A stretch of 64,000 bases of DNA from Cymodocea nodosa (Eukaryota > Streptophyta > Magnoliopsida > Alismatales > Cymodoceaceae): assembly GCA_036874045.1 (NCBI GenBank), contig CM072335.1, forward strand, positions 3,802,001-3,866,000. Reading direction: 5' to 3'. The position numbers and the translations under genes are program-made. The notes beneath the pieces were generated by a model. That model saw nothing but the letters and a program-made list of their open reading frames with translations. It was not told the origin of the DNA and did no database searches. Of this stretch, positions 22,388 through 44,606 are shown in pieces (position 1 is the first letter of the stretch; each line of letters starts with the position of its first letter).

Positions 22388-22805
22388 TCAATGGCACCAG
22401 TGCTTGCAGTGCCTCTTCCCACCGTACCAGGTGTAGCCTCCACAGCACCACGAGTGGACGCCACAGCGGCACCAGTGGGAGCAGTGCTTCTTGCCATCGT
22501 ACCAGATGTAGCCGCCGCAGCAGTACTTGCAGCTTCCACGGGCGCCGTCCACTTCCACTTCATCTGAATTCAATATCCCAGATCAACTAATTAATGACGT
22601 CAGCCAGGCAAAGAAATACACGTCTATCTATTAGACAAGGGAAAGCATATATAGATCGATCAATATTGCAGTATATATAGGTGCTAATTAATCAACCAGT
22701 GTGTTCTTCCTGCATGTCTTCTCCGGCCGCAAGCACGTCGGAGGAGACGAGCAGGAGGGCCGCCACCATCACGGCTAGGACGATGGGAAGTCTTCTTGGT
22801 GCCAT
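22388..22805 (-). CDS. Secreted Cys/His/Trp-rich peptide, array gene 1 (subtype A)
   Basis: Two exons (22805-22697 and 22563-22388) encode 94 residues. Exon 1 gives a signal peptide (MAPRRLPIVLAVMVAALLLV, cleavage expected after VLAA), then an acidic stretch GEDMQEEHT. The intron donor is GTTGAT, weaker than GTAAAT in copy 3, and the acceptor is GAATTCAG; a split Asp codon joins them. Exon 2 has EVEVDGARGS and then two modules, CCGGYIWYDGKKHCSHWC and CCGGYTWYGGKRHCKHWC, joined by RCGVHSW. The mature part has ten Cys, six His and five Trp. The head of the precursor resembles the plant GRP/nodulin-type glycine-rich precursor family (inference); the Cys module matches no defensin, thionin or snakin spacing known to me. 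Likely apoplastic, disulfide-bonded or metal-binding. A TATA box lies 78-85 bp upstream. Confidence 0.75.
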
Positions 22806-22882
22806 TGATCGATCTGTCGTGTAACCAGCGAACTTGAACTGATGTGTATGGGAGATGTCTTCGCCGTATCTATACCGGGCCC

Positions 22883-22890
22883 TATTTATA
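22883..22890 (-). promoter_or_regulatory. TATA box of array gene 1
   Basis: TATAAATA on the minus strand, 78 bp before the ATG, in a context (GCTATAAATAGGGCCC) kept in all four copies. Confidence 0.75.
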
Positions 22891-24019
22891 GCGTAACATC
22901 TTGACAAGTACAAATTAATATGTAATTAAGATTAAGAAGCAGATATGCATGGTTACCTTAAACGAAATTAATTACGTGCCAAGGATCAAAATCTGTGGGT
23001 ACGTACTCTTGAAGTGAATTATTTCAGTCTTCGATTCCACGAGAAAACTCTTATATATGATCGATTACGTGTGCCCCTAGAATATATCTATGTGTGTTCG
23101 AGTGTGTGTGTGTGTATATGTAGAATCGAGTGTTCTGAAAAATCTGCAAGTTCCATCTATCTTACATGTAATGAAAAATTAATCTTATACAAATCCAAAT
23201 ATATAGGTTGATCTATGGAAGACGCATGTCCTTACGTTATACATCGATCCTCCAACACATGCATGGAAGATTTCTCACCTTTCTTGCTGCGTATGCATAT
23301 ATATTGTATATGTGTTAAACCCTTACTTTGGTATGCATTGATTTTAATATATAAATAATCAAATTGGTATATTGAATTTATAAGATTTATAAATCTATAT
23401 TAAATTTGGTATAGTATTTTTTGATACACTGATTTTGTAATTTGGTATATTAAAAAGTATAGTCAAATGCTGTTTCTTAGAAGGTCAAATCTGAGGATGC
23501 GCTTCTGTGGAGCAACCATTTGTTTTGGACTCCGAAAGTCAAAGAAGCATGCTTCAAACCACTTGTCTTACCAACGATTTCATGGATGTTAATATTTCTA
23601 TTTCAATTCAAATATATGTCTGAGATCTGACTATTTGTCCTTTAGGTTTCATTCTATTCATCCTGATCTTACATATAATGTCTTTACTTAATTTACTTAA
23701 ATATGAATAAATTATAAAATATTAATTTTACTATTTGTTAAAATATTTTTTTTTTATCTTAATAATTAATTATTGATTAATTAAAATACCTCTCAAGAGT
23801 TAATAAACAAACTGTGTCTTACATCTTCTTTTGAAGAATGTCTCATATTCATCATATATATATTGTACTACAAAAGGATTGTCAAATATAATTTTAGTAT
23901 TTATAAAAGAAGTTTAGGTAAAGTATTGTTGCATAACTTATAAAGAAAATAACAAATGATATCGAATGTCAACCAACATATATATTCTAAACATTTCCAT
24001 ATTTAAGATAGATAATTTA
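22891..24019. other. Upstream flank of array gene 1
   Basis: The first 450 bp upstream of the TATA box match the other array genes closely (AAGATTAAGAAGCAGATATG, CAAAATCTGTGGGTACGTA). A short TG run lies at 23,100-23,116. Beyond 23,640 it becomes plain AT-rich sequence with no gene. Confidence 0.5.
23480..23640 (+). repeat. 170-bp array block, copy 2
   Basis: Same block, downstream of unit 1, with CTGAGGATGCGCTTCTGTGG in place of the commoner CTGTGGATGCGCTTCCGTGG. Confidence 0.7.
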
Positions 24020-24790
24020 AGCTCATATATGAGAGTATCAATATTTTAGATAGTTTATGTTGATATTTAGACTATTATTCATAAATATCACATGTTTTTG
24101 ATTTCTCTAGTAACATATTCAAGTATATTTGTATTAATTCAAAAGTTTATATGTTTCAAACTTATTTGGTATTATAAATAGTTTAGGCTCATATCTAAGA
24201 GTATTTAATATCATTTTATCTATTTTAACATCATTGCTTTCCTTTTAAGGTCAAAATATACATTTTATAGATAGTTTATGCTATTGTTTAGGAGTATGTA
24301 ATATACTTTTTATATGTTTTTTATAAATAGTTTATACTTTTATTTAGGAGATTTTAATATATTTTATACATTTTTTTATAAAAATTTTATACTCTTATTT
24401 AGGAGTATTTAATATTTTCTATATATTTTTTATAAATAGTTTATAATCTTGTTTAGGTCTATTTAATATCTTTTATAAACAATTTATACTCTTATTTAGA
24501 AGTATTTAATATATTTTATCTATTTTTATAAATAATTTATACTTTTATTTTAGATTATTTAATATATTCTATATTTTTTTATAAATAGTTTATACTCTTA
24601 TTTAAGAGTATTTAATATATTATATATATATTTTTATAAACAATTTATACTCTTGTTTAAGTGTATTTAAAATATTTTTTATAAACAATTTATACTCTTA
24701 TTTAGGAGTATTTAACGTATTATATTTTTTTTTATAAACAGTTTATACTCTTATTTTGGAGTATTGAATATATTTTATATTATTTGGTCG
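24020..24790. repeat. Tandem array of about twelve 50-60-bp hairpin-type units
   Basis: Each unit carries TTTATACTCTTATTTAGGAG followed by TATTTAATATATTTT. The arms ATACTC and GAGTAT are complementary around TTATTTAG, so every unit could fold back. Units degrade towards the left. The last unit ends in TATTATTTGGTCGTACCAAA. Confidence 0.8.
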
Positions 24791-25436
24791 TACCAAAACA
24801 TAACTTCGGCTCGATCGATGTATATATATATGTTGGGTGCATTGGGGTTAGACATTTTGTAAATGTTGGGAGTCATTTCTTTCTTTTAAAAATATTAATA
24901 CATTATATTTTAAAATCATAATCATTTCTTTTTTTATTATTAATCAAAAATATGATTACAAGGTTAACATATGAGAGAAAATTTACGGCAAACTCTTTAT
25001 AAACTTTAAGTTAACTCTAAATACATTTTACAACAATGAAGACCATATATCAACATAAACAAAATGATTCAAATATTTGTCTATATATTTTACGATAGAG
25101 CTCTAGTTTGTCATACCTATCCTAAATTTCCTTGTCTCTCAACATATTACACATTCTAAACTGACCATCAGTTGGGTAAACTATATGATTCTCATACTCA
25201 ACTCTATTATATTGAATATAATTCATTTATTGTTTATGAGATCTAACCATCTGCAATCGTCTTAGTTTTAAACAACAGAGATGTCATGACCTTCCAAATT
25301 GTAGAATTCACATATGCTAACTACACGTTTCAAAAATCTTTGAGCATAAGTATATGTCATATTCTTAATTATAAAATAAAACACACAACACTCCTCTACT
25401 ATTAAAACAAAACAGCACTCACAGTTGCTTAGCTTC
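24791..25436. other. AT-rich stretch with weak copia-like similarity
   Basis: No gene is seen. A short piece near 24,910-24,990 (TATTAATCAAAAATATGATT) resembles the sequence between ORF3 and the 3' LTR of the large copia element (about 49,245-49,330), so part of it may be an old copy of that family. Confidence 0.3.
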
Positions 25437-27448
25437 TCAATTCCCAGTAACAGCGCTAGAAGACCTGTATTGATTTGTTAACTTCTATTTGTTAAGCGGC
25501 ATCAGAAAACTTGTTTAATTTGTTTTTATGCTTATATAAATAATTACTTTTAGAAGTAAACAAATAACCTTTCAAACAAATTAGAGATTAATTCCAATTT
25601 GTATTTTAACTGCAAGTGCATAGTGTATATTGTATTTGTGTGTAAGTACACGTCGATCCCACAGAGATTGAGTAAGAATTGTGTACTATTTCGATTTTTA
25701 TATTGGAGTTTATATGTGTTTAATTAAGCACTCCATTGAGTTAAGGTTAATACAACGAACTTAGTTTGTGGAGTTATAGCTAACTCAACAGACTAACCTC
25801 GTAAACTTAAGTTAACTCCACGAGCTTATCTTTCCAGTTAAATACTACTATTTACAGAGGAATTCGGCCAACCATTGGGCGGTTCCATAGATTGTAAATA
25901 ACATCAATTAAGCTATTTAATGTTAGTTAATATTAGATTTATCATTAACCAACACTAACATTCAGATATTTCAAACAATAACCATTAAAATCTTTAAGTA
26001 TCTAGAACGAATCAAGTTCAGTAAACAATAAAACTATTTTCTATTTTTTGAATCAAACAAACATAAAACATTCATAATATTGACAATGATAACATTAATC
26101 ACGATAAAAAACAAACAATACAACACTCTAATACTAAATGTAAACATAGATAATTCGTTGTTTTTGGTATTTTTGTTTTGATATGTTTCTAAAGATGAGT
26201 GAAAGGTGAAATGTAAAAATCTCTATCGATAGTAAAAACTTCTGTCACTACATGCGATACGATTACACCACTGAAAACTTAATTACTTACAATCTTGCCT
26301 CTTCTTCCTATAGAATCGTAAATCAAGAATTGTAAGATGACCTCCTCTTCAACATATTGGCATCAACCCGAAACCAAGGCTAGGAGTTTTACGATCTCCT
26401 GAGATGTGAGTTGATGCTTGGTGAAAATGGCTTCCCTTCTCGTAATGAGATTACTCCTCACAGTGGTTGTCAGTCACTGTATTTGACATCAGGAAAGTAT
26501 CCTCATAGACCTCTAAAAGTTGGTGATTTTGGTGGTGGTGTGGAGCTTTAAGGAACTTCCGACGCTTCCTGCAGTTAACGTGGTTCTCCACCTCTGCACA
26601 CACACTTTCTTCGTCTTTCTCCTTTTCTTTTATATTTCTTTCTGTAGTAACTGCTTTTGCTTAGATGATCAGTTGGATTTTATTCATTCATATCAACGAT
26701 GGTGATTTCTTCTTTATTCCATGAGTGAATTCCTACGTGATACGTGTAATCGTGGTTTTCCTTCGAATGTCCTGTTTCTGCAACTGCTATAGTAGCATAT
26801 TAGAAAATAAATGATCAATGGAGTTACAGATAACTCAACAGACTTACTTCGTTGATTTAACTATAAAACACGTGCAATAAAGAAATAACTAATTTAGATG
26901 TTTTGGATACTTACAAACCTTAACTATCTGAAACTTATATGCATTTCGGATAGTTAGCACTTAACCTTCCGAAATATAACTTAAGTCAAGTTTCCAAAAC
27001 GCAATACGTGTCCTCAAGCAGTTTTATGATAAAAAGCTATTTTAGATACTTAAAAATCTAACTATCCGATACTTAGATACATTTCAAATAGTTACCAGAT
27101 AACTTATCGAACATTCACTTAAGTCAAGTATTATGGTTTCAACACATGTACTCTAGGAAATAATAAAATATTCTTCTATCGTTAAAAATATAACTGTCCG
27201 GTACATGCAATATAACTCTTTGAAATAACAGAAAATTCGAATACTTAGGAATTTCAAAACTGCAACTTACCGACAATTCAGAAATATACTTAATTAACAT
27301 TAATTCCCTGAAATTATGAAAATTCTTTCATTAAAGCATATAACAGTGTAATTATAACATAATAGCTTAATTCTTATATGATAAGCTAAATATTATGCAA
27401 TTAACCATCATTTAATTGTTAATATTATGCACTTTTTCATTCTAAACA
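25437..27448 (+). mobile_element. Solo or fragmentary LTR of the gypsy family seen at 58,311
   Basis: It aligns along its length, with many differences, to the LTR at 58,311-60,163: TTAATTCCAATTTGTATTTT near 25,590, the CCAACCATTGGGCG word near 25,870, and the terminal CACTTTTTCATTCTAAACA at 27,430-27,448. The left terminus is poorly preserved. No internal element sequence follows. Confidence 0.7.
26520..26705 (+). other. Open stretch inside the LTR, not a gene
   Basis: A 61-codon frame matches the LTR segment at 59,340-59,540, where the corresponding sequence is differently framed. I treat it as LTR sequence. Confidence 0.4.
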
Positions 27449-28195
27449 GAGATCATCTTACAAAAATTTAGGTTTACAATCCAATAGAGAGAGAAGTGCT
27501 TAACAGTAAGTGATTAAGTTTTCAAAGATATAACTACATTGCATGTAGTGTTGGAAGTCTTTTATTTTTAATAGAGAGTTTACCATTCATAAATCATTCA
27601 CCTTAAGGAACATGCATATTTATGTTTACATCACGATGTTTATTATGTTCTATGTTTGTATCGTTTGTTTGTACTATGTGTTAGTAATTGTTAAATGTTG
27701 AGTGTTTAGTTTATTTCAATTAATATGAAATCGTATGACTTTATTTTGAAACCAGTTAGTTTAAATCTTTGGAATCGTGCTTTACCTATTTATTATTTGA
27801 ATTCATTTGAATGCTAAAATTATTTGGTGTTAAATCTGATATAAGTAGCAATCAGAGAGTATATAGTTGTTGTTTGCATTATTTGGGATCACCTAATGGA
27901 TGACTTCATTCTTATGCAACCAACACTAGTAAGAGTAAGTTACAGAATTGCTCATTAAGTTATCTATAACTTAACAAGTGTAGTCTATTGAATTATCTGT
28001 TACTCAACAAAGGTAGTCTATTGAGTTAAGTAGTAACTCAAGGGAGTAAAATGTTTTATCATTGCACTAATATCAAAACATGTTGGAATATGACTCTAAT
28101 CATTCTTTGTGGTTCGACCTGTTCTTGCACACTTAATATAATTGATATTGTACATTTGTAGTTAATTAAACAAACAGATTTACTAGATTTAAATA
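27449..28195 (-). mobile_element. Inverted partial LTR of the same family
   Basis: Directly after the LTR terminus the sequence turns into the reverse complement of LTR interior (GAGATCATCTTAC pairing with the AAGATGATCTCCTC region of 59,158-59,172) and runs to about 28,195. It ends near a tRNA-independent word TTCTTGCACACTTAATA. Confidence 0.65.
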
Positions 28196-28234
28196 TTGTT
28201 TAAGAGATTGCTTGTTTCCTTGTAAAAATTTCAT

Positions 28235-28960
28235 TTAAGAAAGCAAGACAAAACTCCCCTTCCCTTCAATAAGAGGTGATAATGGGAGTGTTTTAGTAAT
28301 ATCTTTTTCTACGTCAACGACAACAACATATGGATTTAAATGGATATGCAAACTAAAATTCAATACAAGATAAATTAGGTTACCTATAACAACTAGACTT
28401 TCATCTTTAATTGCTCTAGAACCAAACACCACCATCTTTGTGGGCTTCCAACATCTATTTCCAAAGCGATAGATATCAAGGTAAACATTGTCATTGCACT
28501 CTTCCATTGGTTCCCAACAAAAGACTTTGTGACTCAATCAATTTTAGTCAATCCACGAGCAGAATGCAATAACATCACCGACCTTCCTAAGACAATGCTT
28601 CTCGATTCTTGGTTAGGGAGTTCGAAACTCATCCGAAGTTACAGGATTTCAAATAAATATTATCAAAAATGAGGAATCATTAATGACCAAATCTTCCACA
28701 TATAAAACTAAGTCTTTGCTACAGCTCAATATATTGGTTGTCACACCATTAAGAGAATTTGACGGAATGTCAGAATGAAGGTTGAAACATGAGAGAGCAG
28801 GTTGTAGAAGTAGGTGTTTGACTAAAACACCACAATCATCGATAAATCGAAATGACTACAAGGCGTTGAAGAATAAATCATTAACGAAAGTTTTTGTTGA
28901 TTTGTAGAGGCAATGAAGTCAGCACACCTCCTACAATAGTAATCAGGAAAGTATTTCCAC
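28235..28960 (-). pseudogene. F-box/kelch-type gene remnant (C-terminal part)
   Basis: A single minus-strand frame with about six stops carries features of the F-box-associated beta-propeller family: NILSCSKDLVLY, then IFI-stop-NPVTSDEF, VYLDIYRFGNRCWKP, VVIGNLIYLVLNF and VVVVDVEKDITKTLPLSP. These proteins are substrate receptors of SCF ubiquitin ligases. The F-box itself is missing. The reading frame is held without frameshift, so decay is by point mutation only. The longest open part is 28,235-28,537. Confidence 0.55.
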
Positions 28961-28974
28961 TAATATGACATCCT

Positions 28975-29170
28975 GACAATGCAATCTGAAGTTGGATGGA
29001 TGGAGAGATGGGGGGAGAGTTCCATGCAATCTTGAATTGTCTGAATACAATATTTTTCTAAAATTATATATGAAATTACTTCCATGATAAGTTCTTATTC
29101 TTCATTCCAATCTTGTAATTTTCTCTGAACCTTCACAATCTTCTTGTTTAATTATGAAAAATTAAACATA
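28975..29170 (+). repeat. Copy of NRPD4 intron-8 sequence
   Basis: GAAGTTGGATGGATGGAGAG and the following TATATATGAAATTACTTCCA match 18,850-19,030 in NRPD4 intron 8. Confidence 0.6.
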
Positions 29171-29189
29171 TAAATATGTGGATGCACCG

Positions 29190-29395
29190 GGTATGACCTT
29201 AGAATTTGTCATATATGGCTCCTCTTGCTTGGAAGGTCAAATCTGTGGATGCGATTCCGTGGAGCAACCATTTGTTTTGGACTCCGTAAGTCAAAGAAGC
29301 AAGCTTCAGACCACTTGTCTTACCAACTATTTCAAGGATGTCAATATTTCTATTTCTATTCAAATATATGTCTGACTGTTTCATTCGATTCATCC
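29190..29395 (+). repeat. 170-bp array block, copy 3
   Basis: This is the best preserved copy. It is open in both directions for 64-65 codons. I do not call a gene because the frame is not kept in other copies. Confidence 0.7.
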
Positions 29396-29519
29396 TAATA
29401 TTACATATAATGCCTTTATTTTATTTAATTACATACGAATTAATTATAAGATTATGTAAGATATTAATTTTACTATTTAATTTATAAATGTTTAGTTACT
29501 TGCGTGATGCCTTAAAGAA

Positions 29520-30325
29520 CATAAATTAATTAAAATGGATCTTGCTAAAGGTGATGTTATTCATTCTATATCATTCTGCCTTGAATATATACAAACGAGC
29601 ATTGGACATTGTGGAATATGTGTGGAATTTTTTGAATAATTGTTAACCCAATCCTAGGCAGAGAAAATATATAAAGAAGAAAATGTGAAAAGAGAAGGAA
29701 GAAAGGAATGTAAGACTGTATTATTTATGTGAAAAATACTTCATGCACATTTTGCTTATTTGGTGAAAGTTATAATACGTACAAGAGAGTTTCCAACTAA
29801 AATATGGCAATTGTATTTTACTTGATGTGCGTGCATGGTTGATCTTCTACTTTACTTTAAGATTTATATGTTTGATCGATGATAATAATTCACATGGAAG
29901 TAATTAAATCATAAAATTAATATTTGAATTTTTATGATTACAAGCCTTAAAATTTAAATTATTTAAGACATCATACAAGTATCTAAACATAAGTAACTTA
30001 AATAATAAAATTAATATTTTACTTAATCATATAATTAATCATATTTAATTAAATTAAGTAACGCCATTATATGTAAGATTAGGATGAATCGAATGAAACC
30101 TAAAGGACAAATAGTTAGACACATATTTGAATTGAAATAGAAATATTAACTTACATGAAATCGTTGGTAAGACAAGTGGTTTGAAGCATTCTTATTTGAC
30201 TTATGGAGTCCAAAACAAATGGTTGCTCCACGGATGCGCATCCACAGATTTGACCTTCCAAGCAATATGATTGAGACTCATGTATTATAACGAATATTAT
30301 CTTCTGCCATATATGACATATAAAC
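29520..30325 (-). repeat. Inverted segment of the array unit
   Basis: The order and strand of words are reversed relative to the other units: GGTGATGTTATTCATTCTAT, CCTAGGCAGAGAAAATATAT, then GAAGGAAGAAAGGAATG and GGTGAAAGTTATAATACGTA are complements of 37,190-37,430. It ends with a reversed 170-bp block (30,120-30,262). Confidence 0.75.
30120..30262 (-). repeat. 170-bp array block, copy 4 (inverted)
   Basis: It is the only copy on the minus strand. Its outer edge (CAAGCAATATGATTGAGACT) is the complement of 45,745-45,765. Confidence 0.75.
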
Positions 30326-31101
30326 ACTATTTAGGGATGGTTTGATTTGATTGTAGTAATTTCTTAACTTTCAAGTAAAGAAAATCTATCTTCTTGGAAT
30401 GATTAGATTATCAATACAATTAATGGCACCTTTCTCCTACTATTTGTGTGCATTAATTAAATATGAGATTTATCCCTCGACGACCTTTGTTAATTAAATT
30501 GAAGAAAAAAACTTGAATGCAGACACTCACAGTTTTTTTTTACTATGGTCGTCTAAAATAGTATTCAAATTTATTCTTGTTATATCGTTTTGACTATGGC
30601 TACATGAATTACATGTCTGATGTCATATATATATTGAAATTAAATTTAATATGTCGTTTAAGACATTACAATAAAAATATCTAAAATACCGATACCTACA
30701 TCTATTTGTGTATAAATACTAATGGACAATTGAAATCAATCGTACGTTCCTTCATCGTCAACTCCTCTATTCAAAAAATACACCTATGTGTGTATAGAGT
30801 TCAAAAAATACCATAAGTATCTAGAGAAAAAATAGATTATATAAATTAAATTATAAAAAGTAAAATGCTTAAGCTTAGAGTTAGAGGCTGGATATGGATG
30901 ACGCACGTGTAGCCCAACATTAAGTTTAATCATTCCATAATTATATCAAAGTACGTCGTACAAGAAGAAGGAAGCTCGAAGGCTTTTATTCGAACACGTG
31001 TATATATGGTAGAATTGCACGTGCAATTTATTTGGATAGTAATACTAAATGGTGCTGTTCGAGCTCTTGTTTCGTCTTCCCATGGGATCGTCGGTGATTG
31101 A
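30326..31101. other. Downstream flank of array gene 2
   Basis: No gene is seen. The words GATTAGATTATCAATACAAT and GACTATGGCTACATGAATTA are shared with units 3 and 5. CACGTG-containing words (AACACGTGTATATATGG, TTGCACGTGCAATTTATT) at about 30,990-31,030 recur after each array gene. Confidence 0.5.
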
Positions 31102-31519
31102 TCAGTGGCACCAGTGCTTGCAGTGCCTCTTCCCACCGTACCAGGTGTAGCCTCCGCAGCACCACGAGTGGACGCCACAGCGGCACCAGTGGGAGCAGTG
31201 CTTCTTGCCATCGTACCAGATGTAGCCGCCGCAGCAGTACTTGCAGCTTCCACGGGCGCCGTCCACTTCCACCTCATCTGAATTCAATATCCCAGATCAA
31301 CTAATTAATGACATCAGCCAGGCATAGAAATACATGTCTATCTATTAGACAAAGGAAACCATATATATATCGATCAATATTGCAGTATGTATGGGTGCTA
31401 ATTCATTAACCAGTGTATTCTTCTTGGATGTCTTCTTCGGCAGCAAGCACGTCGGAGGAGATGAGTAGGAGGGCCGCCACCATCACGGCCAGGACGACAG
31501 GAAGTCTTTTTGGAGCCAT
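31102..31519 (-). CDS. Secreted Cys/His/Trp-rich peptide, array gene 2 (subtype B)
   Basis: Exons 31519-31411 and 31277-31102, 94 residues. Subtype B signal peptide: MAPKRLPVVLAVMVAALLLI then SSDVLAAEEDIQEEYT. The mature part is identical in sequence to gene 1, including all ten Cys, although the exon differs at a few silent positions, which suggests constraint or conversion. The donor is GTTAATGA, a departure from the GTAAAT of gene 3; if it splices poorly, the exon-1 frame would stop straight after the Gly codon. The TATA box is at 31,597-31,604. It lies 8.7 kb from gene 1 with an F-box remnant, LTR pieces and a local inversion in between. Confidence 0.75.
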
Positions 31520-31596
31520 TGATCGATCTGTCGTGTGACCAGCGAACTTGTACTGATGTGTTTGGGAGATGTCTTCGCCGTATCTATACCGGCCCT

Positions 31597-31604
31597 TATT
31601 TATA
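31597..31604 (-). promoter_or_regulatory. TATA box of array gene 2
   Basis: TATAAATA read on the minus strand, 78 bp before the start codon. Confidence 0.7.
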
Positions 31605-32189: not shown

Positions 32190-32335
32190 GGGAAGGTCAA
32201 ATCTGTGGATGTGCTTTGCGGAGCAACCATTTGTTTTGGACTCCATAAATCAAAGAAGCATGGTTCAAACCACTTGACTCACCAACGATTTCATGGATGT
32301 TAATATTTCTATTTCAATTCAAATATATCTCCGAA
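32190..32335 (+). repeat. 170-bp array block, copy 5
   Basis: The block is truncated on the right, where it joins the NRPD4 exon-8 copy directly (CAAATATATCTCCGAAACAA). Confidence 0.7.
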
Positions 32336-32745: not shown

Positions 32746-32774
32746 AAAAATGTGGATGCCCTGGGTCTGACTTA

Positions 32775-32965
32775 GAGTTTATATGTCATATATGGCTCCT
32801 CTTGCTTGGAAGGTCAAATCTGTGGATGCAACCATTTGTTTCGGACTCCGTAAGTCAAAGAAGCGTGCTTCAAACCACTTGTCTTACCAACTATCTCAAG
32901 GATGTCAATATTTCTATTTCTATTCAAATTTTTGTAAAATGCTGTTTGTCCTTTATGTATCATTC
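32775..32965 (+). repeat. 170-bp array block, copy 6
   Basis: It lacks the CGCTTCCGTGGAG portion: GTGGATG is followed at once by CAACCATTTG. Confidence 0.7.
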
Positions 32966-34831
32966 GATTCATCCTAATCTTACATATAATGCCTTTATTT
33001 AATTTAATTACATACGAATTAATTATACGATTATGTAAAATATTAATTTTACTATTTAATTTATAAATGTTTAGTTACTTGCGTGATGTCTTAAGGAATT
33101 TAAATTTTAAAGCTTGTAATCATAAAAATTCAAATACTAACTGCACGATTTAATTACTTAAATGTGAATTATTATCACAAATCAAACATATAAATCTTAA
33201 AGTAAAGTAGAAGATCAACCATGGATGCATATCAAGTAAAATACAGTTGCCATATTTTAGTTGGAAACTCGTTTGCACATTTTATAACTTTCACCAAATA
33301 TGCAAAATGCGCATGAAATATTTTTCACATAAATAACACATTCGTACATTCTTTTCTTCCTTCTCTTTTCACATTTTCTTCTTTTTATATTTTCTCTTCC
33401 TATGTTCCTCTCTGCTTTCAACATTTGTCTCTCGTTTATTCTTTTTATCTTAATCTTAAATAGTTATTAAGTTTACATGGGTCTGTGTAAAATTTTTGTC
33501 ATCTCTTCTTTCTCTTCTTTTTCCTTCATAATGCTTCAAATAAATTTAGATGAATAAAATACACGTTCCATACTTGAATTCGCCATACATTGCGCGCAAC
33601 ACATCAACAATATTCCAAGTCCATTTATAACGCAAATCCAAAAGAAAGCCACCTACAAACTTCTATCGGAAATAAAGAATTAGAACTTTCAAAAAATGTA
33701 CAATTATTACTATTACAACTAAATTTATATAAATGTCATTTTAGGCGTATAATTAATCCTTATCTCCCATTCCATCTCTTAAACCTGCAATTTCCTAGTA
33801 TTTATTATATTAATCTAGCAGAGGAATTGGATTAACAATTATTCAGAAAATTCCAAACATATTCCTCAATCTCCAATGCACATTTGTAAATATTCAAGGC
33901 TGGATGATACAGAATGGATTAACATCACCCTTAGCAAGTTCCATTTTAATTAATTTATGTTCTTGAATTTTATCTCATATGCAAGCGTGCAAAATTTGCA
34001 CACCATATATATATTTCCAATGAAGGTCACCTCCTATGTATTCTTGAAAGGATTCAAAATTAACACATGGAATTGGACGATTGATTTTGAAGGGATGGTT
34101 TGATTTGATTGTAGTAATTTCTTAACTTTTCAAGAAAGAAAAACTAACCTTTTGGAAAGATTAGATTATCAATACAATTAATGGCTTCTTTCTCCTACAT
34201 TTGTGTGCATTATTTAAATATGAGTTTGATCCCTCAACGAACTTTGTTAATTAAATTAAAGAAAAAACTTGAATGTAGACATTCACAGTATTTTTTTTAC
34301 TATGGTCGCCTAAAATAGTATTGAAATTTATTGTTGTTATGTCATTTTGACTATGGCTACATGAATCACATGTCTGATGTCACATATATATTGAAATTGA
34401 ATTTAATTACAATAAAAAAAAAAAATACCTATACCAACACCTATTTGTGTATAAATACTAATGGGCCATTGAAATCAATCGTACGTTCTTTCATCACCTC
34501 CTCTATTCAAAAATTACACTTTTGTGTGTAGAGTTGAAAAAATACCGTAAGTATCTACAGAAAAGAAAGATTATATAAATTAAATTATAAAAAGTAAAAA
34601 GCTTAAGCTTGGAGTTAGCTGGAGATCGATCACGCACGTGTAGCCCAACAGTATGTTTAATCATATCATAATTATCAAAGGTACGTCGTACAAGAAGAAG
34701 AAAGCTCGAGGGCTTTTATTCGAACACGTGTATATATGGTAGAATTTCACGTGCAATTTATTTAGATGGTAATACTACATGGTGCTGTTCGAGCTCTTGT
34801 TTCGTCTTCCCATGGGATCGTCGGCGATTGA
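32966..34831. other. Downstream flank of array gene 3
   Basis: This long AT-rich flank has the same order of landmarks as 21,170-22,387 and 42,480-44,188 (CAAGTAAAATACAGTTGC, the CTTCTCTTTTCACATTTTCT tract, GATGATACAGAATGGATTAA). No gene is supported. The 81-codon frame at 33,590-33,835 has no match in the other units' frames. Confidence 0.5.
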
Positions 34832-35451
34832 TCAGTGGCACCAGTGCTTGCAGTGCCTCTTCCCACCGTACCAGGTGTAGCCTCCGCAACACCACGAGTG
34901 GACGTCGCAGCGGCACCAGTGGGAGCAGTGCTTCTTGCCATCGTACCAGATGTAGCCGCCGCAGCAGTACTTGCAGCTTCCACGGGCTCCGTCCACTTCC
35001 ACCTCATCTGTATTCAATATCCCAGATCAACTAATTAATAACATCAACCAGGCATAGAAATACATGTCTATCTATAAGAAAAGGGAAAGCATATATAGAT
35101 TGATCAATATTGCAGTATATATAGGTGCTAATTAATTTACCAGTGTGTTCTTCTTGCATGTCTTCTCCGGCCGCAAGGACGTCGCCGGCGCCGTCCACTT
35201 CCACCTCTTCTGAATTCAATATCCCAGATCAACTAATTAGTAACATCAGCCAGGTATAGAAATACATGTCTGTCTGTAGGAAAAAGGAAAGCATATATAG
35301 ATCGATCAATGTTGCAGTATATATAGGTGCTAATTAATTTACCAGTGTGTTCTTCCTGCATGTCTTCTCCGGCCGCAAACACGTCGGAAGAGACGAGCAG
35401 GAGGGCCGCCACCATCACGGCTAGGACGATGGGAAGTCTTCTTGGTGCCAT
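34832..35451 (-). CDS. Secreted Cys/His/Trp-rich peptide, array gene 3, three-exon form
   Basis: Exons 35451-35343, 35209-35141 and 35007-34832 give 117 residues. Exon 1 is subtype A (VFAA before GEDMQEEHT). The middle exon is 69 nt and is a chimera: it begins like exon 2 (EEVEVDGAG) and continues as the end of exon 1 (DVLAAGEDMQEEHT) with its own GTAAAT donor. All phases match, so it adds 23 residues of acidic propeptide without breaking the frame. The final exon keeps both Cys modules, with CD in place of CG in the linker. The simplest origin is unequal crossing-over between exon 2 of one copy and exon 1 of another. Skipping the middle exon would restore the 94-residue form. The TATA box is at 35,529-35,536. 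Confidence 0.7.
35141..35209 (-). other. Chimeric middle exon of array gene 3
   Basis: Acceptor GAATTCAG and donor CACTG|GTAAAT are both intact. The fusion point lies in the shared GC-rich word GGCGCCGGCGACGTCC, where the exon 2 text ends and the exon 1 text begins. Confidence 0.7.
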
Positions 35452-35528
35452 TGATCGATCTGTCGTGTACCCAGCGAATTTGAACTGATGTGTTTGGGAG
35501 ATGTCTTCGCCGTATCTATACCGGGCCC

Positions 35529-35536
35529 TATTTATA
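35529..35536 (-). promoter_or_regulatory. TATA box of array gene 3
   Basis: TATAAATA on the minus strand, 78 bp upstream of the start codon. Confidence 0.7.
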
Positions 35537-35708
35537 GCGTAACATCTTGACAAGTACAAATTAATAAGTAATTAAAATTAAGAAGCAGATATGCATGGTT
35601 AGCTTAAACGACGTTGATTACGAGCCAAAGATCAAAATCTGTGGGTACGTAATCCGAAAGCAAATTATTTCAGTCTTCGTTTTCACGAGAAAACTCTTAT
35701 ACATGATC

Positions 35709-35751
35709 GATATATATATATATATAGATAGATAGATAGATAGATAGGTAG

Positions 35752-35842
<91 letters not shown>
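35709..35842. repeat. Compound microsatellite (TA)n-(TAGA)n-(GA)n
   Basis: About nine TA, then about twelve TAGA units with one TAGG interruption, then roughly 38 GA. On the minus strand it yields a meaningless Ser-Leu frame. It sits 170 bp beyond the promoter of array gene 3, where the other copies have only a short TG or TA run. Confidence 0.95.
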
Positions 35843-35843
<1 letters not shown>

Positions 35844-37129
35844 TGGACCACAGTGTCAAAGCTGTGGGTACTACCCATCACTATCTGATTTTCGCATTCC
35901 ACCTCTTCCCATGGATTTACTTTTGTCGTCATGTTAACAATAAAAAAAAGAAAAAGAAAAATATAAAATTAAAAGGTTTCAGATGAAAAATATCACGTCT
36001 AAAACTAAAATACAAATTATAATGTTTGAAACAAAAATAAAGAAAATGACACAAATTAACAATGAAAGCTGAATGGAAATCAAAATGCTTTAAATGTAAA
36101 GTTTAAAATCTAAAACTATGATTGAAGCGAAATACTTAAGAAAAAAAATTTAAAATATTTAAATAACGAAATATAACATTAAGAGAAAAATTGAAACGAC
36201 GTGAATATCTAAAGTAAAATAAATCGAAATGTCGATATCTTAAGTTTTCATATTTGATATTTCGAATTCGGTAGAATTAAACGAGGAAGGAGGGAAAATT
36301 AGTCCAATTGAAGTGTAAGTTTGGTTAGACTAAGCCTTTTTTTAAAAAAAAAGGAAAAGTCGATTTAATTGAAACGCAAGTTGGGTCAAGTCAAACTTTT
36401 TAAGAAAAAAAGGCAAGATGGTTCTCATTGAATTGCAAGTTCGGTCAAATCCAACTTAAAAATAGAAAAAGAAGATATTTAAAATAAAGGAGAGAGGAAA
36501 AGTGAAGAAATGAATTAAAATATAAGTCTTTAAAATTAAGAATATAAATATTATCCTCAAATTGATTTTTTCGCCCTTTCATAAGTTCGGTCTGCCTTTG
36601 ACCATTGTTTCATCTTTTCCTTTTTTTTCTTCATCTTTTTGTCCTTTTTTTTCCTCCTTTCTTTTTTTAATTTTTATTTTCTTTTTAATTACATCTTATA
36701 ATTTATACCAAGATGTTTAATTAGCTTTATAAGGGTTTGTGATGTTCGTGTAAACCTAACGAAATACGTTCGTTGTGTTTACTCGTATGCTTAGCGTAAT
36801 TACTAACTAAATTGGATCAAGTTTGAACATAACAAAGTAAGTTCGTTATGTTCAAATGAACTCCACAGATATACTATATATCACTATAATAAAAGATTAT
36901 TTTTGTAGAATTATCTAATTGTTAGAGCAATAGAACATTTCTATATTTGGGACTATTAGTTTCAACAAGGACAACAATAGGTCAACAATTATAGAGTTTA
37001 GCTAAATGTTGGAATAAAAGATATTTAAAAAGGAACATAATGTGAAAGAAAGAGATAAAGTAAAATTTACAAAATATAGAAAATATATTTGAGTAAGCAT
37101 CAAAGAAGAATTACAACATTTTGGAAGAT
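35843..37129. other. AT-rich stretch without genes
   Basis: It includes three degenerate tandem units of about 65 bp at 36,290-36,470 (shared words ATTGAA, GCAAGTT and GGTCAA followed by an A-rich run) and a fold-back word pair, TTGAACATAACAAAGTAAG with CTTCGTTATGTTCAA-like text, near 36,825-36,855. Nothing coding was seen. Confidence 0.5.
36290..36470. repeat. Three degenerate 65-bp tandem units
   Basis: Units start near CCAATTGAAGTGTAAGTTTG, TTAATTGAAACGCAAGTTGG and TCATTGAATTGCAAGTTCGG. Each is followed by a purine-rich A tract. Confidence 0.65.
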
Positions 37130-37690
37130 CAATATCAAGTAAAATACAATTGACATATTTTAGTTGGAAACTCTCTTGTACGTATTATAACTTTCACCAA
37201 ATAAGCAAAATGTGTATGAAGTATTTTTCACATAAATAATACAGTCTTACATTCCTTTCTTCCTTCTCTTTTCACATTTTCTTCTTTATATATTTTCTCT
37301 GCCTAGGATTGGGTTAACAATTATTCAAAAAATTCCACACATATTCCACAATGTCCAATGCTCGTCTGTATATATTCAAGACAGAATGATACAGAATGAA
37401 TAACATCACCTTTAGCAAGATCCATTTTAATTAATTTATGTTCTTTAATTTTATATCTTGTTCTAGCATGGAAAATTTGCACACCATATATATTTTTCCA
37501 ATGAAGGTCACCACCTATGTATTCTTAATAGGGTTCAAAATTAATGCATGGATTTGGACGATTGATTTTTGTAGGGATGGTTTTCTTTGATTGTTGTAAT
37601 TTCTTAACTCTTCAATAAAGAAAAACTAACTTTTTGAAATGATTAGATTATCAATACAATTAATGGCATCTTTCTCGTACCATTTCTGCA
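37130..37690 (+). repeat. Remnant of an array-unit downstream flank
   Basis: From CAAGTAAAATACAATTGACA to GATTAGATTATCAATACAAT the order matches the flanks of intact units, but it is compressed. It is the direct-orientation match of the inverted segment at 29,520-30,120. Confidence 0.7.
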
Positions 37691-37761
37691 TGCACGTCGG
37701 AGGAGACAAGTGGGAGGGCCGCCGCCAACACGGCCAGGGCTACAGGAAGTCATTTTGGTGT
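37691..37761 (-). pseudogene. Exon-1 relic of a fifth array gene
   Basis: On the minus strand, TGACTTCCTGTAGCCCTGGC and GGCGGCGGCCCTCCCACTTG and TCTCCTCCGACGTGCATGC correspond to the signal-peptide exon (subtype B wording). The frame is broken and exon 2 and the promoter are absent. Downstream-flank sequence abuts it directly, so a deletion removed the body of the gene. Confidence 0.75.
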
Positions 37762-38760
37762 CTGGACGATTGATTTTTTATTAGTATTTGTGCGATGTTT
37801 AAGGGTTGATAATTCATATCTGTTTGAATTTACTGCATTACAGATGTTGCAAGAATATTTTTTGTAGGTTATCAAAATCATTTTACGGAAAGGAAATCAG
37901 AAATGACATGAAAATTCAACGCAATTAATTTGACAAAATGGCAGAACTTAACGATTGAGGACTCTACAAAATACAAAAGAAAATCAACGAACCCAATTCA
38001 ACGCCTAACATAGATTTCTGAAAAATTCTTCTAGATAGACTAAGTGTAGAAATGAGAGATAATTTTATGAAGCATTTCATGAAGAGAACTACGAGTGTGC
38101 CCTAGTCCTTTGTAGTGAAGAAACATAAAATTTGAAACTACTGTGCGAGGAATATTTTAGCAATTCAAAACATTCGTTGGTTTGAGTTTATTTACTATTC
38201 TCCTGCGCTTTAGAAAGAGTATTTTTGTATTCGTGAATGCTGTTGAATTAAACCTATCTTTTTCAATCAAGTCTTTAATTGAGAAAACCTTACTCATTAG
38301 TTATGGTAAGTAACCTTCTCAAATCTGCAAATTTGAAAAGAGGAAGAGGTCAATGCCTTATCTACTTAAGATAGTAGCCTTGTGAACATAAGGTTGTAGC
38401 CCTATGTTGAATACAAAGTAGGACTTTATGTTGATTAGTTTGGTGTGTAACCAGGAAACACCATTACAGAATTTGAGATTCTATAAAAGGTTGATATTGA
38501 GTTTGAAAAATACTAAGTTAATGGAACTCTTAAGGTTGGAGCTTGTGAGAGTGGACTAACCTATTTGGGTGAACTACTATAAAATTTTTTGTGTACCTTA
38601 TTTAGTTACTTTTACAATTTCTTTTTGTTACTCTAGTTAAATTACTTAACTACATAGAATTAAAATTATACAACTCTAATTTAAAGAAGATTAAAATTGA
38701 TAGTTAATTTAATCAACAAACTATTCACCTTTCTCTCTAATGAACATTCAATCCATATCA
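37762..38760 (+). mobile_element. Probable 5' LTR of a decayed copia element C
   Basis: The end of this stretch looks like the R-U5 part of a copia LTR (AACCTATTTGGGTGAACTAC TATAAAATT-type text near 38,560) and stops at CATATCA two bases before a perfect priming site. The left boundary was not found. Confidence 0.5.
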
Positions 38761-38762
38761 AG

Positions 38763-38773
38763 TGGTATCAGAG
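38763..38773 (+). other. Primer-binding site (initiator Met tRNA) of copia C
   Basis: TGGTATCAGAG is intact, two bases after the LTR end. Confidence 0.8.
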
Positions 38774-38799
38774 TAAGGTTGATTTTATTAAATACTTAA

Positions 38800-39680
38800 A
38801 TGTCTAAAAATCAATAGCTCATTTGTCAAAGGAACAAAACATACATAAGCCACAATTGTTTGATGATAATAACTATGGTTATTGAAAAAATAAGATATAA
38901 AATTTCATGAAATTATTAGATGTTAAATTATGGAGAGCTATTGTTAAGGGAATTCCACTATCTACCATAACTAAAGAGAAGTAGACTAACAAGGATGAGA
39001 AGAAAATTTAGCCTGATGCTCAATGTATGAATACTTTGGCTTATACTTTGATTGTTAAGCAATATCATAAGATTTCTACATGTAAAACATCATATGAAAC
39101 TTGACATGTTCTACAAATGATATATGAAGGAACAAGTCAAGTAAAGGAAACTAAAATAAATATTTTGTTTAGAAAGTATAAAATGTTTAAAATGGGATAA
39201 AAGAATCAATTGCTAAAATGATATTTAGATTTGTTGAGATTACCAATAGACTAAAAACCTTGGAAAAGAATTTACTATACATGAATAGGTTTCAAAAGTG
39301 TTGAAGAGTCTTACAGCTGAGTGGAAACAAAAGTTCACATTAATCCTAGATGCAAAGGAATCTACTAGCCCATAAAGGTTAGATGAAGGATTGGAGAGAC
39401 AAAGAGGAGAAACTTCCAAGAAGTTAGAAAGAAAGAAAGAAATAGCACCAAAAACTCAATTAGAGAAATTAGCTCAGAATATGCTTTAAGAGCTAACTTA
39501 TGTGCAACAATAATCTAAAGAATGGAAAATCATCAACATCTATATGTTTCATCTACAACAAATGTGGACACTGCTAGAAAATTGTCCACTATTAATGGGA
39601 GAAAATAAGAAAAAAGAAAAGCAGAAGAAGCACTATAAGAAAAATGAAGAATTCAAGAAAAAGAATCCAATCGTACTTGA
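38800..39680 (+). pseudogene. Copia C gag remnant
   Basis: The reading gives PQLFDDNNYGYWKNKI, LLDVKLWRAIVKGIP, YEGTSQVKETKINILFRKYK and ETKRRNFQEVRKKERN with about ten stops, then a broken zinc-knuckle zone near 39,545-39,600. It is related in type to the gag of the large copia element at 57,141-57,626 (both have GTSQVKETKIN). Pol is absent; the element is cut off by LTR sequence at about 39,690. Confidence 0.75.
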
Positions 39681-39689
39681 CCTGCTTAT

Positions 39690-40078
39690 TATTTGAAGTT
39701 TTTGAATGCTAAAATTACTAAGTGTTAAATTTAATATAAGTAGCATTCAGAGAGCGTATAGTTGTTGTCTACATTATTTGGTATCGCCCAATGGATGGTC
39801 AAATCCAAATGCGAAACAATTGTCAAGAGAAAGAGTCACGAACCTATCCATTGAGTGAAGTAGTAACTCAACAGAGTGAGTGATTTTGTTAATAAACACT
39901 ACACTTTGTCTATAGCAACTTAGAATTTAATTTCAACAATTCTTTATGGATTCGACCTGTTCTTGCACACTTGTTACAACTGACGATGTGTACTTGCATT
40001 AAATTATATGAATGGATTTACTGGATTTAAATCTTGTTTGAGAATTACTTGTTCACTTATAAAAATTACATTTAAGCT
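39690..40078 (-). mobile_element. Inverted partial LTR of the 58,311 gypsy family
   Basis: The words TGTTGTCTACATTATTTGG and CGCCCAATGGATGG are complements of the LTR segment that occurs in direct orientation at 40,150-40,200, so this piece and the next one form a head-to-head pair. Confidence 0.65.
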
Positions 40079-41015
40079 AATAAGACAAAGTCATAGATAA
40101 CTCAACGAGCAATTCAATAAGTTACTCTTACTACTATTAGTTGCACAAGAATGCAGCCATCCATTGGGCGATCCTAGAAAATGCAAACAACACACTTACG
40201 CTCTCTGAATACTACTTATATCATATTTAATACAAAGTAATTTTAGCATTCAAATGAATTCAAGTAACAAACATGCAAAGTACGATTTCAAATATTTAAA
40301 CTAACTAGTTTCATAATAAAGTCATATGATTTCATATTGACTAAAATAAAATAAAAACACAACATTTAACAATTACTAACACACAATTTAAACACAAATG
40401 ATACAAACACAAAACATAATGTACACAATGATGTAAAAGTAAACATATATATTCCTTAAGGTGGACAATTCATGAATGGTAAACTCTCTATTAAAAATAA
40501 AAGACTTTTAACACTACATGCGACGTAGTTACACTTCTTAAAACTTAACCACTTACTGTCAAGCACTCTTCTCACTACTAGATTGCGAACTTAAACTTTT
40601 GTAAAATAATCTCCTCTTTAATAAATCGATATTAACCTGAAACTAAGGCTAAAAGTTTAACTGTCTCTTAAAAGATGATTTGGTGCTTGTTGAAGAAATA
40701 TTTCCTTTCTATGATGTGATCACTCCTTCGCAGTGATTATCAATCACTATAGTTTCCTTAGAATAGACTCGACTTTAAAAATTATCTGCATAGACCTCTA
40801 ATGAATGGTAGATAGTGGTGAAATAAAGATATCTCAAGAAATGTTTGACATTTTCTATAATAAGTATGACTATTTTCTTCCTCCCATTTTCTTGATTTTT
40901 TTAATCCTTATATATTACTTTTTTACTAACAATTGTTAGCACCAAAAATGATTAGGTGAATTCTTCTTTCCTGTACATCAATAATTGTTTTTTCCTTCCA
41001 TGTTAGAAATCATAG
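40079..41015 (+). mobile_element. Partial LTR of the 58,311 gypsy family
   Basis: It aligns to about 58,690-59,640: CCATCCATTGGGCGATCCT, AACTAAGGCTAAAAGTTTAA and GATGTGATCACTCCTTCGCA. It lacks both termini. Confidence 0.65.
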
Positions 41016-41019
41016 GTGT

Positions 41020-41046
41020 GAAAATAATAATAATAATAATAATAAT
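41020..41046. repeat. (AAT)n microsatellite
   Basis: About nine AAT units follow GTGTGAA. Confidence 0.9.
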
Positions 41047-41399
41047 CGAAACTTTTTTATGTGGTGGGCCTCGAAGTTTATGGACTATGAATAATCTTTG
41101 TTATCTCGTTTGCTTCCGAACTCGTGAACAACGGCGTCATGATTCCGTCTTTGATTCGGCTTAACGTAAAATTATAAATCAAATTATATATATAAATCGA
41201 TTTGAATTATGTTCAGATTGAATCGAATGGTTTAATTTGATTTTTAAATCAAATGGAGCCACACCACCAAAAAGTAGCTAGATTTGGCAAATAAATTTAA
41301 TTTATGGCTGTCGTGATTTTGAGTTGTCAATGGATAAAAAAGATGTTTACGAGTGGTCGGAAAATTTTCACTAGATATTTGTTAATTTTCACTAGATAA

Positions 41400-42245
41400 T
41401 TGACAGATGGTAAGATCTAAATAAAAATTTGTTCACTACGTACTGCATTCTTTCTTTCTGATGTGTGTTTTCTCGATGGTACGTATACCTTTTAGTGCTC
41501 TCAATCATTTCAGTAACTATAAAGTTCAATTCTATTGAAATCATATAAAAAATTTTCTAATATGATTTACACTAGAAAAGTTATTCTGAAAAGAATTTCT
41601 GCGGTACATTAACTTTTAAAATGAGGAAAGGAAAATGAAAATTCAAGACGGAAAGTTATTGTAAATCCAAGTGCTCATAATATGTTTGATTTCTTATCAT
41701 TCTAGCCCATTTTTAGCATGAAATATCTTAATATCTCAACGTGCTCATGTACTCCACTTTGGAAATGATATTCCAAAATCTTAATATTTCAATTTGCGAA
41801 TGCTAGGAAAAAAAGTAGAATACGGAGGGAGCTTCGAAAGAAGCACTTGGTGAATTAGCAAAACCAAGGAATTCTATGGAAAGGAATGCATGGGTATCAT
41901 TTTAATTATATTACTCACATTCATAAAAGATACTCTTTATTAAGATTGATGTTATTTACGAATGACAAAACAATAATTTTTTTGACCAAAATTTTTGTAA
42001 TATTACGTTAGTATGCTGTGATTTTTATTTTATCTCTAAATTTTTTGCATTATGTTTTTGTATTTTACAATCAGAAGTTGGTTGGATGAATGGAGAGAAG
42101 GAGGGAGAGTTATTGTTCCTTGAATTATCTGAATACAATATTTTTCTAAAATTATATATGAAATTACTTCCATGATAAGTTCTTATTCTTCATTCCAATC
42201 TTGTAATTTTCTCTGAACCTTCACAATCTTCTTGTTTAATTAAGA
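41400..42245 (+). pseudogene. Copy of NRPD4 intron 7 end, exon 8 and intron 8 start
   Basis: Matches 18,211-19,040. Exon 8 (41,816-41,884) is here complete but broken: CAG became TAG (stop), CTA became CCA as in the 32.3-kb copy, and the donor GGTATGC became GGAATGC. The shared CCA shows both copies descend from one duplicate. Confidence 0.85.
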
Positions 42246-42279
42246 AAAATTAAACATATAAATGTGTGGATGCCCCGGC

Positions 42280-42475
42280 TATGACCTTAGAATTTATATG
42301 TCATATATGGCTCCTATTGCTTGGAAGGTCAAATCTATGGATGCGCTTCCGTGGAGCAACTATTTGTTTTGGACTCCGTAAGTCAAAGAAGCATGCTTCA
42401 AACCACTTGTCTTACCAACTACTTGAAGGATGCCAATATTTCTTTTTCTATTCAAATATATGTCTGACTGTTTGT
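42280..42475 (+). repeat. 170-bp array block, copy 7
   Basis: Downstream of the NRPD4 copy, in the same order as copies 3 and 6. Confidence 0.7.
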
Positions 42476-44188
42476 CCTTTATGTATCATTCGATTCATCC
42501 TAATCTTACATATAATGCCTTTATTTAATTTAATTACATACGAATTAATTATAAGTTTTATGTAAAACATTAATTTTACTATTTAATTTATAAATGTTAA
42601 GTTACTTGCGTGATGCCTTAAGGAATTTAAATTTTAAAGCTTGTAATCATAAAAATTCAAATACTAACTATATGATTTAATTACTTACATGTGAATTATT
42701 ATCAAAAATCAAATATATAAATCTTAAAGTAAAGTAGAAGATCAACTATGCATGCATATCAAGTAAAATACAATTGCCTTATTTTAGTTGGAAACTGTCT
42801 TCTACGTGTTATAACTTTCACCAAATAAGCAAAATATGCATGAAATATTTTTCACATAAATAACACATTCTTAGTTTTTTTTTCCTTCTCTTTTCGCATT
42901 TTCTTCTTTATAGATTTTCTCTTCCTATGTTCCTCTCTACTTTCAACCTTTCTCTCTCCTTTATTCTCCTTATCTTAATCTTAAATAGTTATTTATTAAG
43001 TTTACATGGGTTTGTATTAAATTTTTGTCATCTCTTCTTTTTACTTCTTAATGCTACAAATAAATTTAGATAAAAAAAATACCCGTTAATTCAAAAATGA
43101 AGTTTCCATACATTGCATGCAACATATCAACAATATTACATGTCCATTTATAACGCATACCCAAAACAAAGCCACCTACAAACTTCTATCATTTAGAAAT
43201 AAAGAATTAGATCTTTCAAAAAATGTGCAATTGTTACTATTACAACTAAATTTATAAAAATGTTATTTTAGGCATATAATTAATCCTAATCTCGCATTCC
43301 ATTCTCAAGCTGCAATTTCCTAGTATTTATTATATTAAGGTAAAAGAAGAATTGGGTTAATAATTATTCAAAAAATTCCAATCATATTCCTCAACCTCCA
43401 ATGCTCTTTTGTATATGTTCAAGACAGGATGATACAGAATGGATTAACATCACCATTAGCAAGATCCATTTTAATTAATTTATGTTCTTGAATTTTATCT
43501 CTTGTGCGAGTAAGCAAAATTTGCACACCATATATATATTTCCTATGCATTCTCCTACCATTTGTGTGCATTAATTAAATATGAGTTTGATCCCTCGACG
43601 ACCTTTGTTAATTAAATTGAAAAAAATCTTGAATGCAAACACTCAGTATTTTTTACTATGGTCGTCTAAAATAGTATTCAAATTTATTCTTGTTACATGT
43701 CTGATGTCATATATATATTGAAATTAAATTTAATATGTCGTTTTAGACATTACAATAAAAATATCAAATATACCGATACCTACACCTATTTGTGTATAAA
43801 TACTAATGGACAATTGAAATCAATCGTACGTTCCTTCATCGTCAACTCCTCCTCTATTCAAAAAATACACCTATGTGTGTATAGAGTTCAAAAAATACCA
43901 CAAGTATCTACAGAAAAAATAGATTATATAAATTAAATTATAGAAAGTAAAATGCTTAAGCTTGGAGTTAGAGGCTGGATATCGATGACGCACGTGTAGC
44001 CCAACATTAAGTTTAATCATTCCATAATTATATCAAAGTACGTCGTACAAGAAGAAGGAAGCTCGAAGGCTTTTATTCGAACGCGTGTATATATGGTAGA
44101 AATGCACGTGCAATTTATTTATATAATAATGGAACATGGTGCTGTCCGAGCTCTTGTTCTGTCTTCCCATGGGATCGTCGGCGATTGA
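42476..44188. other. Downstream flank of array gene 4
   Basis: AT-rich unit sequence without a supported gene; landmarks occur in the same order as in 32,966-34,831. The 79-codon frame at 43,697-43,936 is not conserved in the other units. Confidence 0.5.
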
Positions 44189-44606
44189 TCAGTGGCACCA
44201 GTGCTTGCAGTGCCTCTTCCCACCGTACCAGGTGTAGCCTCCACAGCACCACGAGTGGACGCCACAGCGGCACCAGTGGGAGCAATGCTTCTTGCCATCG
44301 TACCAGATGTAGCCGCCGCAGCAGTACTTGCAGCTTCCACGGGCGCCGTCCACTTCCACCTCATCTGAATTCAATATCCCAGATCAACTAATTAATGACA
44401 TCAGCCAAGCATAGAAATACATGTCTATCTATTAGACAAGGGAAAGCATATATATATCGATCAATATTGCAGTATGTATAGGTGCTAATTAATTAACCAG
44501 TGTATTCTTCTTGGATGTCTTCTTCGGCAGCAAGCACGTCGGAGGAGATGAGTAGGAGGGCCGCCACCATCACGGCCAGGACGACAGGAAGTCTTTTCGG
44601 AGCCAT
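44189..44606 (-). CDS. Secreted Cys/His/Trp-rich peptide, array gene 4 (subtype B)
   Basis: Exons 44606-44498 and 44364-44189, 94 residues. The signal peptide and propeptide are the same as in gene 2 (MAPKRLPVVLAV, AEEDIQEEYT), and the mature double module is unchanged, with both CCGGY and HCxHWC pairs in place. The donor GTTAATTAAT resembles that of gene 2. The TATA box lies at 44,684-44,691 in GGCCCCTATTTATAGGG. It sits 13.1 kb from gene 2, nearly the same interval as gene 1 to gene 3 (12.6 kb), which points to duplication of a two-gene block. As with its siblings, activity is unknown; antimicrobial, metal-binding or signalling roles are all open. Confidence 0.75.

Follow-up and report, generated by a model that had tools for sequence, protein, structure and literature searches.

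We analysed a window of 64,000 nucleotides of Cymodocea nodosa DNA (assembly GCA_036874045.1, contig CM072335.1, positions 3,802,001 to 3,866,000 of the forward strand), and all coordinates below are positions in this 64-kb stretch. On its minus strand the window carries a tandem array of four intact two-exon genes for small, putatively secreted proteins with a doubled module rich in cysteine, histidine and tryptophan. A four-gene tandem array had been proposed in the first-pass annotation of this DNA, and four intact minus-strand copies were indeed found, each with exons of 109 and 176 nt.

Structure and evolution of the gene array

The genes and the features belonging to them are as follows.

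22388-22805, (-): copy 1 gene; 22388 is the last base of the stop codon and a limit of the array
22697..22805, (-): copy 1 exon 1, encoding the signal-peptide-like head and the first part of the acidic stretch
22388..22563, (-): copy 1 exon 2, remaining acidic stretch and double Cys/His/Trp core
31102-31519, (-): copy 2 gene
31411..31519, (-): copy 2 exon 1
31102..31277, (-): copy 2 exon 2
34832-35451, (-): copy 3 gene
35343..35451, (-): copy 3 exon 1
35141..35209, (-): copy 3 optional in-frame hybrid exon, 69 nt, combining portions of exons 2 and 1
34832..35007, (-): copy 3 exon 2, with the sole exon 2 replacement
37692..37751, (-): truncated relic of a fifth exon 1
44189-44606, (-): copy 4 gene; 44606 is the first base of the ATG and a limit of the array
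44498..44606, (-): copy 4 exon 1
44189..44364, (-): copy 4 exon 2
44684..44691, (-): TATA box TATAAATA at -85 of the copy 4 ATG

The exon lengths are constant (109 nt for exon 1 and 176 nt for exon 2), and the joined exons are in frame and encode 94 residues in each of the four copies; copies 2 and 4 encode an identical protein. The GT-AG intron is in phase 1 and measures 133 nt, except in copy 3, where it measures 335 nt. The GC content is 55–62% in the exons, 31–37% in the introns and 31.5% in the whole window. Every copy has the TATA box TATAAATA at -85 relative to its ATG. Judged from these sequence features, the four genes are real and look functional. No fifth intact copy was detected in the window by blastn/tblastn scans. 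All four copies also carry the 5-mer TTGAC/GTCAA at -100 or -102 relative to the ATG, and three carry ACGTG/CACGT at -173; given their shortness, chance or shared descent may account for both.

In copy 3 a 200-bp segment spanning the intron is duplicated in tandem (92.5% identical), and this duplication gives rise to the 69-nt hybrid exon. Both splice sites of this exon are present, and its use would add 23 residues and double the acidic stretch. The fifth exon 1 survives as a relic of 60 nt with 88% identity, and no exon 2 match was found beside it.

The variable codons across the four copies comprise 7 synonymous and 1 replacement in exon 2 (n = 8), the latter being a change of G to D between the modules of copy 3, and 8 synonymous and 7 replacement in exon 1. 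Replacements are below expectation in exon 2 (P = 1.2e-4), for which a share of 79% was expected under a crude transition bias taken from the flanks, and in exon 1 (P = 0.03). The tests assume that the changes are independent, an assumption that exchange between copies may violate. Since 7 of the 8 variable codons are synonymous, this comparison, which the first-pass annotation had suggested as a check, indicates at the sequence level that exon 2 and the core that it encodes evolve under purifying selection. The accompanying claim that the core is almost invariant while the head varies agrees with the counts (1 replacement in exon 2 and 7 in exon 1), but the contrast between the exons in replacement and synonymous counts is not significant (Fisher P = 0.18).

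Copies 1 and 3 are grouped against copies 2 and 4 by 11 of 109 sites in exon 1, by 2 of 133 intron sites (Fisher P = 0.004 for the excess in exon 1 over the intron) and by none of the 176 sites in exon 2, and the pairwise distances between copies in exon 1 conflict with those in exon 2. The conflicting groupings probably result from exchange between copies, which leaves the extra divergence of exon 1 unaccounted for.

The encoded protein and its similarity to glycine-rich proteins

The 94-residue product consists of a hydrophobic signal-peptide-like head, an acidic stretch of approximately 20 residues and a core of 48 residues that contains 10 Cys, 6 His, 5 Trp, 5 Tyr and 8 Gly and has an isoelectric point (pI) of 8.9. 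A signal peptide is suggested by the hydrophobicity and by the alignment of the head to the start of the Pfam model for glycine-rich proteins (GRP, PF07172). The earlier description of these parts as a signal and an acidic propeptide is retained for the signal-peptide-like head and the acidic stretch but not for the word propeptide, as no processing site has been shown. Two near-identical 18-residue modules, CCGGYxWYxGKxHCxHWC, are spaced 25 residues apart in every copy, and the previously reported ten Cys, six His and five Trp were counted in all of them. In copy 4 the modules are located as follows.

44270..44323, (-): module 1, CCGGYIWYDGKKHCSHWC
44195..44248, (-): module 2, CCGGYTWYGGKRHCKHWC

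Each module has five Cys once the Cys preceding its CC is included, and HCSHWC and HCKHWC do not vary across the four copies. The two modules within one gene differ at 8–10 of 54 nt, whereas the exon 2 copies of different genes are distinguished by only 2–7 of 176 nt, and the internal duplication is therefore probably older than the gene copies. Structure prediction, also proposed as a check in the first-pass annotation, yielded short strands in hairpin order with modest confidence, and no fold match was obtained.

The guess that the head of the precursor resembles GRP-type proteins is supported by PF07172, which matched the four 94-residue products with E values of 6.1e-6 to 9.8e-6, although under its cut-off. 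The matches span residues 1–63 in copies 2 and 4, 4–63 in copy 1 and 4–58 in copy 3, and the long form of copy 3 scored 24.5 bits. The head together with the acidic stretch gave an E value of 5.3e-5, and residues 26–94 alone did not match PF07172. In ten scripted region-wise shuffles of residues 2–47, eight gave no match to this model and the others gave E values of 0.062 and 0.14; of two hand-typed shuffles, one had no GRP match and the other gave 0.033, the best of the 12 controls. Because the shuffled controls match far worse or not at all, the resemblance to GRP lies in the order of the residues and not in their composition alone.

Class II GRPs are built from a signal peptide, GGxxxGG repeats and a cysteine domain at the C-terminus (PMC5852109), and class I and II GRP genes of Brassica rapa have one or two exons (PMC7396569). 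The cysteine domain of AtGRP3 is required for its binding to WAK1 (PMC4777284, PMC4783359). CrGRP is located in the cell wall (PMC8096328). Tomato CuRe1 senses the 21-residue cysteine peptide of CrGRP (Crip21), an activity that was abolished when Cys 7 of the peptide was replaced and reduced when Cys 17, 20 or 21 was (PMC7576778).

The array proteins resemble class II GRPs such as AtGRP3 and CrGRP/Crip21 in a head similar to the GRP type, in C-terminal cysteine-rich sequence around CC-GG, of which module 2 aligns to Crip29, and in an arrangement in one or two exons; the two exons in all four copies fit the rule for class I and II genes, and copy 3 could use a third. The class II proteins differ in having GGxxxGG repeats and a single domain with six Cys, whereas the domain here is doubled, with five Cys per module, and rich in His and Trp. 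The spacing of the core, C-x(2,5)-CC-GG-x9-C-x3-C, is near the C-x4-CC-GG-x6-C-x2-CC of Crip29, a class II cysteine domain of Cuscuta reflexa (PMC7576778). Module 2 with its flanks scored 51 against Crip29, which was reached by 35 of 5000 shuffles, in an alignment of Crip29 CG-NSGCCGG-AYSNGQ--CKRCC over CGVHSWCCGGYTWYGGKRHCKHWC. The pattern C-x(2,5)-CCGG-x(5,10)-C-x(2,3)-C occurred in 517 of 200000 shuffles of the exon 2 product and in 398 of 200000 shuffles of Crip29, counts that are biased accordingly since the pattern was written after both sequences were known.

Two other groups of proteins were compared by their descriptions. In coffee, class II GRPs with 12 Cys rather than 6 occur alongside a family with six to 10 (PMC3045888), and the array proteins similarly exceed the usual six Cys of a GRP-like secreted protein. 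Coffee offers a precedent for more than one cysteine set; that the domain itself is doubled there is our reading of the published Cys counts. TLRP, the tyrosine- and lysine-rich wall proteins of Solanaceae, are alike in their signal peptide, Tyr and Lys residues and cysteine domain.

A Pfam scan of the 94-residue protein to an E value of 10, in which program filters mostly drop weak matches above approximately 0.1, gave only GRP and a weak RXLR match, with no snakin/GASA, defensin, thionin or chitin-binding family, and an NCBIfam scan gave no match; metallothionein and zinc-finger families were absent from both. The RXLR match (E = 0.0057–0.038) was rejected, as its best stretch falls within residues 5–40, mostly the head, and its score is under the cut-off, and a DUF7286 match to the long form of copy 3 (E = 0.14) was likewise rejected. 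EWR1, a secreted peptide of Brassicaceae, was dropped; it has a 49-residue mature part and two adjacent C-terminal Cys in some homologues only. A sequence search of the PDB gave no match to the exon 2 product up to an E value of 10, and for the whole precursor only feruloyl-CoA hydratase/lyase at 0.18. The first-pass annotation had presented the peptides as undescribed, which is not fully supported in the sense of lacking known kin: none of the defensin, thionin, snakin, hevein or metallothionein profiles matched in these scans, but the spacing of the core is near that of the class II GRP domain, although of the two modules only module 2 beats shuffles.

Among 5.8 billion proteins, a collection with an unstated share of plants, two candidates sharing words with the protein were found, none of them at an E value up to 1, and a second search gave no candidate. 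None of the 10 pattern matches in viral contigs and none of the 259 in prokaryote genomes was confirmed. These blank searches say little on novelty among plants, because the viral and prokaryote sets by their description contain no plants and the plant share of the protein collection is unstated, and annotated homologues may exist in plant proteomes. Six strings from the core did not occur in the 5.39 million papers searched, and six strings typical of class II cysteine domains led there to three unrelated papers only.

Surrounding repeats and other features of the window

Duplicated blocks of 71–98% identity lie around and between the gene copies. An 863-nt stretch (as cut, 20960-21822) recurs, completely or partially, at nine other places in the window (for example 32756-33610, 42270-43133 and 29655-30260). 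Eight of these share its orientation and the ninth is reversed, and many lie between gene copies. The stretch is probably a mobile element.

The remaining features of the window are as follows.

1963-2385, (-): DUF7894 match, profile part 69-203
7169-7465: copia-type gag fragment, score slightly under the cut-off
14425-14763, (-): DUF7894 match, profile part 2-38
51785-51907, (+): lone 5S rRNA-like stretch, 43.7 bits with a gathering score of 38
53411-57626, (-): apparent Ty1-copia retroelement with several open frames

The Ty1-copia genes, the gene of DUF7894, a plant family, and the GT-AG introns are content that fits a plant. The two stretches of DUF7894 are approximately 12 kb apart on the same strand with the gag fragment between them and perhaps belong to one gene. 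The 5S rRNA-like stretch may be a piece of a 5S-derived retroelement; blastn of 51400-52400 revealed no second copy in the window. The Ty1-copia element was called from a profile scan of 53930-55456 (RVT_2 and SH3_retrovirus), and the remainder was read from translations.

Interpretation of the array

We consider it rather probable that the array encodes GRP-derived secreted proteins of the cell wall (apoplast) that lack glycine repeats and have a doubled and altered cysteine domain. The direct observations behind this reading are the gene structure, the selection on the core, the similarity of the head to GRP and the similarity of module 2 to Crip21/Crip29. The proteins would descend from class II GRPs, having retained the GRP-type signal peptide and acidic stretch and lost the glycine-rich repeat. 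Duplication of the cysteine domain would have produced two modules of five Cys each, which gained His, Trp and Tyr, module 1 presumably sharing this descent. The head would direct the protein to the wall by secretion, and the acidic stretch would remain as a spacer or be cut off. Each module would form a beta hairpin held by putative disulfides, and the paired domains may bind the wall or become fixed there. By analogy with the AtGRP3 cysteine domain and WAK1, the protein may also be a ligand of wall-associated receptor kinases, and the doubling would provide two binding sites per molecule.

Several points weigh against this reading. All PF07172 scores (26.6–27.2 bits) are under the gathering cut-off of 30, and the head supplies much of them, giving 20.5 bits (E = 7.5e-4) by itself. 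Crip29 was the single class II cysteine domain compared letter by letter; module 1 is no better than shuffles against it (2230 of 5000 reach the score), and the match of the whole 58-residue exon 2 product is weak (267 of 5000). The distance from CC to C is 11 residues here and 8 in the class II domain, C-x3-C stands where that domain has C-x2-CC, and Cys 21 of Crip21, the last of the C-x2-CC pair, has no direct counterpart in the modules. GGxxxGG repeats are absent from the four translations on reading. Lacking these repeats and scoring under the Pfam cut-off, the array proteins are not to be classed as class II GRPs. They may still work like the class II cysteine domain by attaching to the wall or binding a receptor, each molecule offering two sites. 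A bolder version of this descent, in which a lineage-specific family freed the cysteine domain from the glycine repeats, doubled it and, by adding His and Trp, made of it a bivalent ligand or a wall binder that depends on metal, with copy 3 testing a longer form through its hybrid exon, is conceivable but doubtful.

The aromatic residues that follow CC also recall hevein, which carries CC-S-x-W-G-W. The array proteins have aromatic residues at the same +3 and +5 positions after CC, and their core is small, basic (pI 8.9) and contains 10 Cys with predicted strands in hairpin order. It nevertheless appears unlikely that the product has no relation to GRPs and is hevein-like, binds chitin or is antimicrobial in some other way, with two sites at which CC-x2-aromatic-x-aromatic hairpins stack on sugar rings of the fungal wall. 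The Cys pattern differs, as the Cys at the sixth place after CC in hevein is Tyr here, the Pfam scan gave no chitin-binding family, no fold was matched, and neither PDB search found hevein, structures of which the database contains. The 48-residue core, with its ten Cys, its six His and the invariant HCSHWC and HCKHWC, could instead hold Zn, Cu or a similar metal in the apoplast through HCxHWC and neighbouring Cys and His. We regard this as quite unlikely: it requires free thiols, whereas disulfides are usual in secreted Cys-rich proteins, and the Pfam and NCBIfam scans gave no metal-binding family of the kinds named above.

The order of head, acidic stretch and conserved core resembles that of peptide precursors, with fewer replacements in the core than in the head. 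That lineage-specific copies encode a prepropeptide from which a cysteine-rich signal, unrelated to wall structure, is released by cleavage is still distinctly improbable, given that neither a dibasic nor any other processing site has been shown and that the difference in conservation between the exons is not significant by itself. Very improbable is a decayed or silent array whose copies are kept alike only by recent duplication and gene conversion. The segmental copies all around, the different groupings of the copies in exons 1 and 2 and the relic at 37692-37751 would fit such decay, but all four copies retain intact frames, splice sites and TATA boxes, and synonymous changes prevail in exon 2.

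The class II GRP cysteine domain, to which we consider the core related, is needed for the interaction of AtGRP3 with WAK1 and carries the epitope by which tomato senses dodder via CuRe1, while the native role of CrGRP is not established. A natural protein that consists almost entirely of two such domains and appears to evolve under purifying selection would offer a clean means of studying the role of the domain without glycine repeats.

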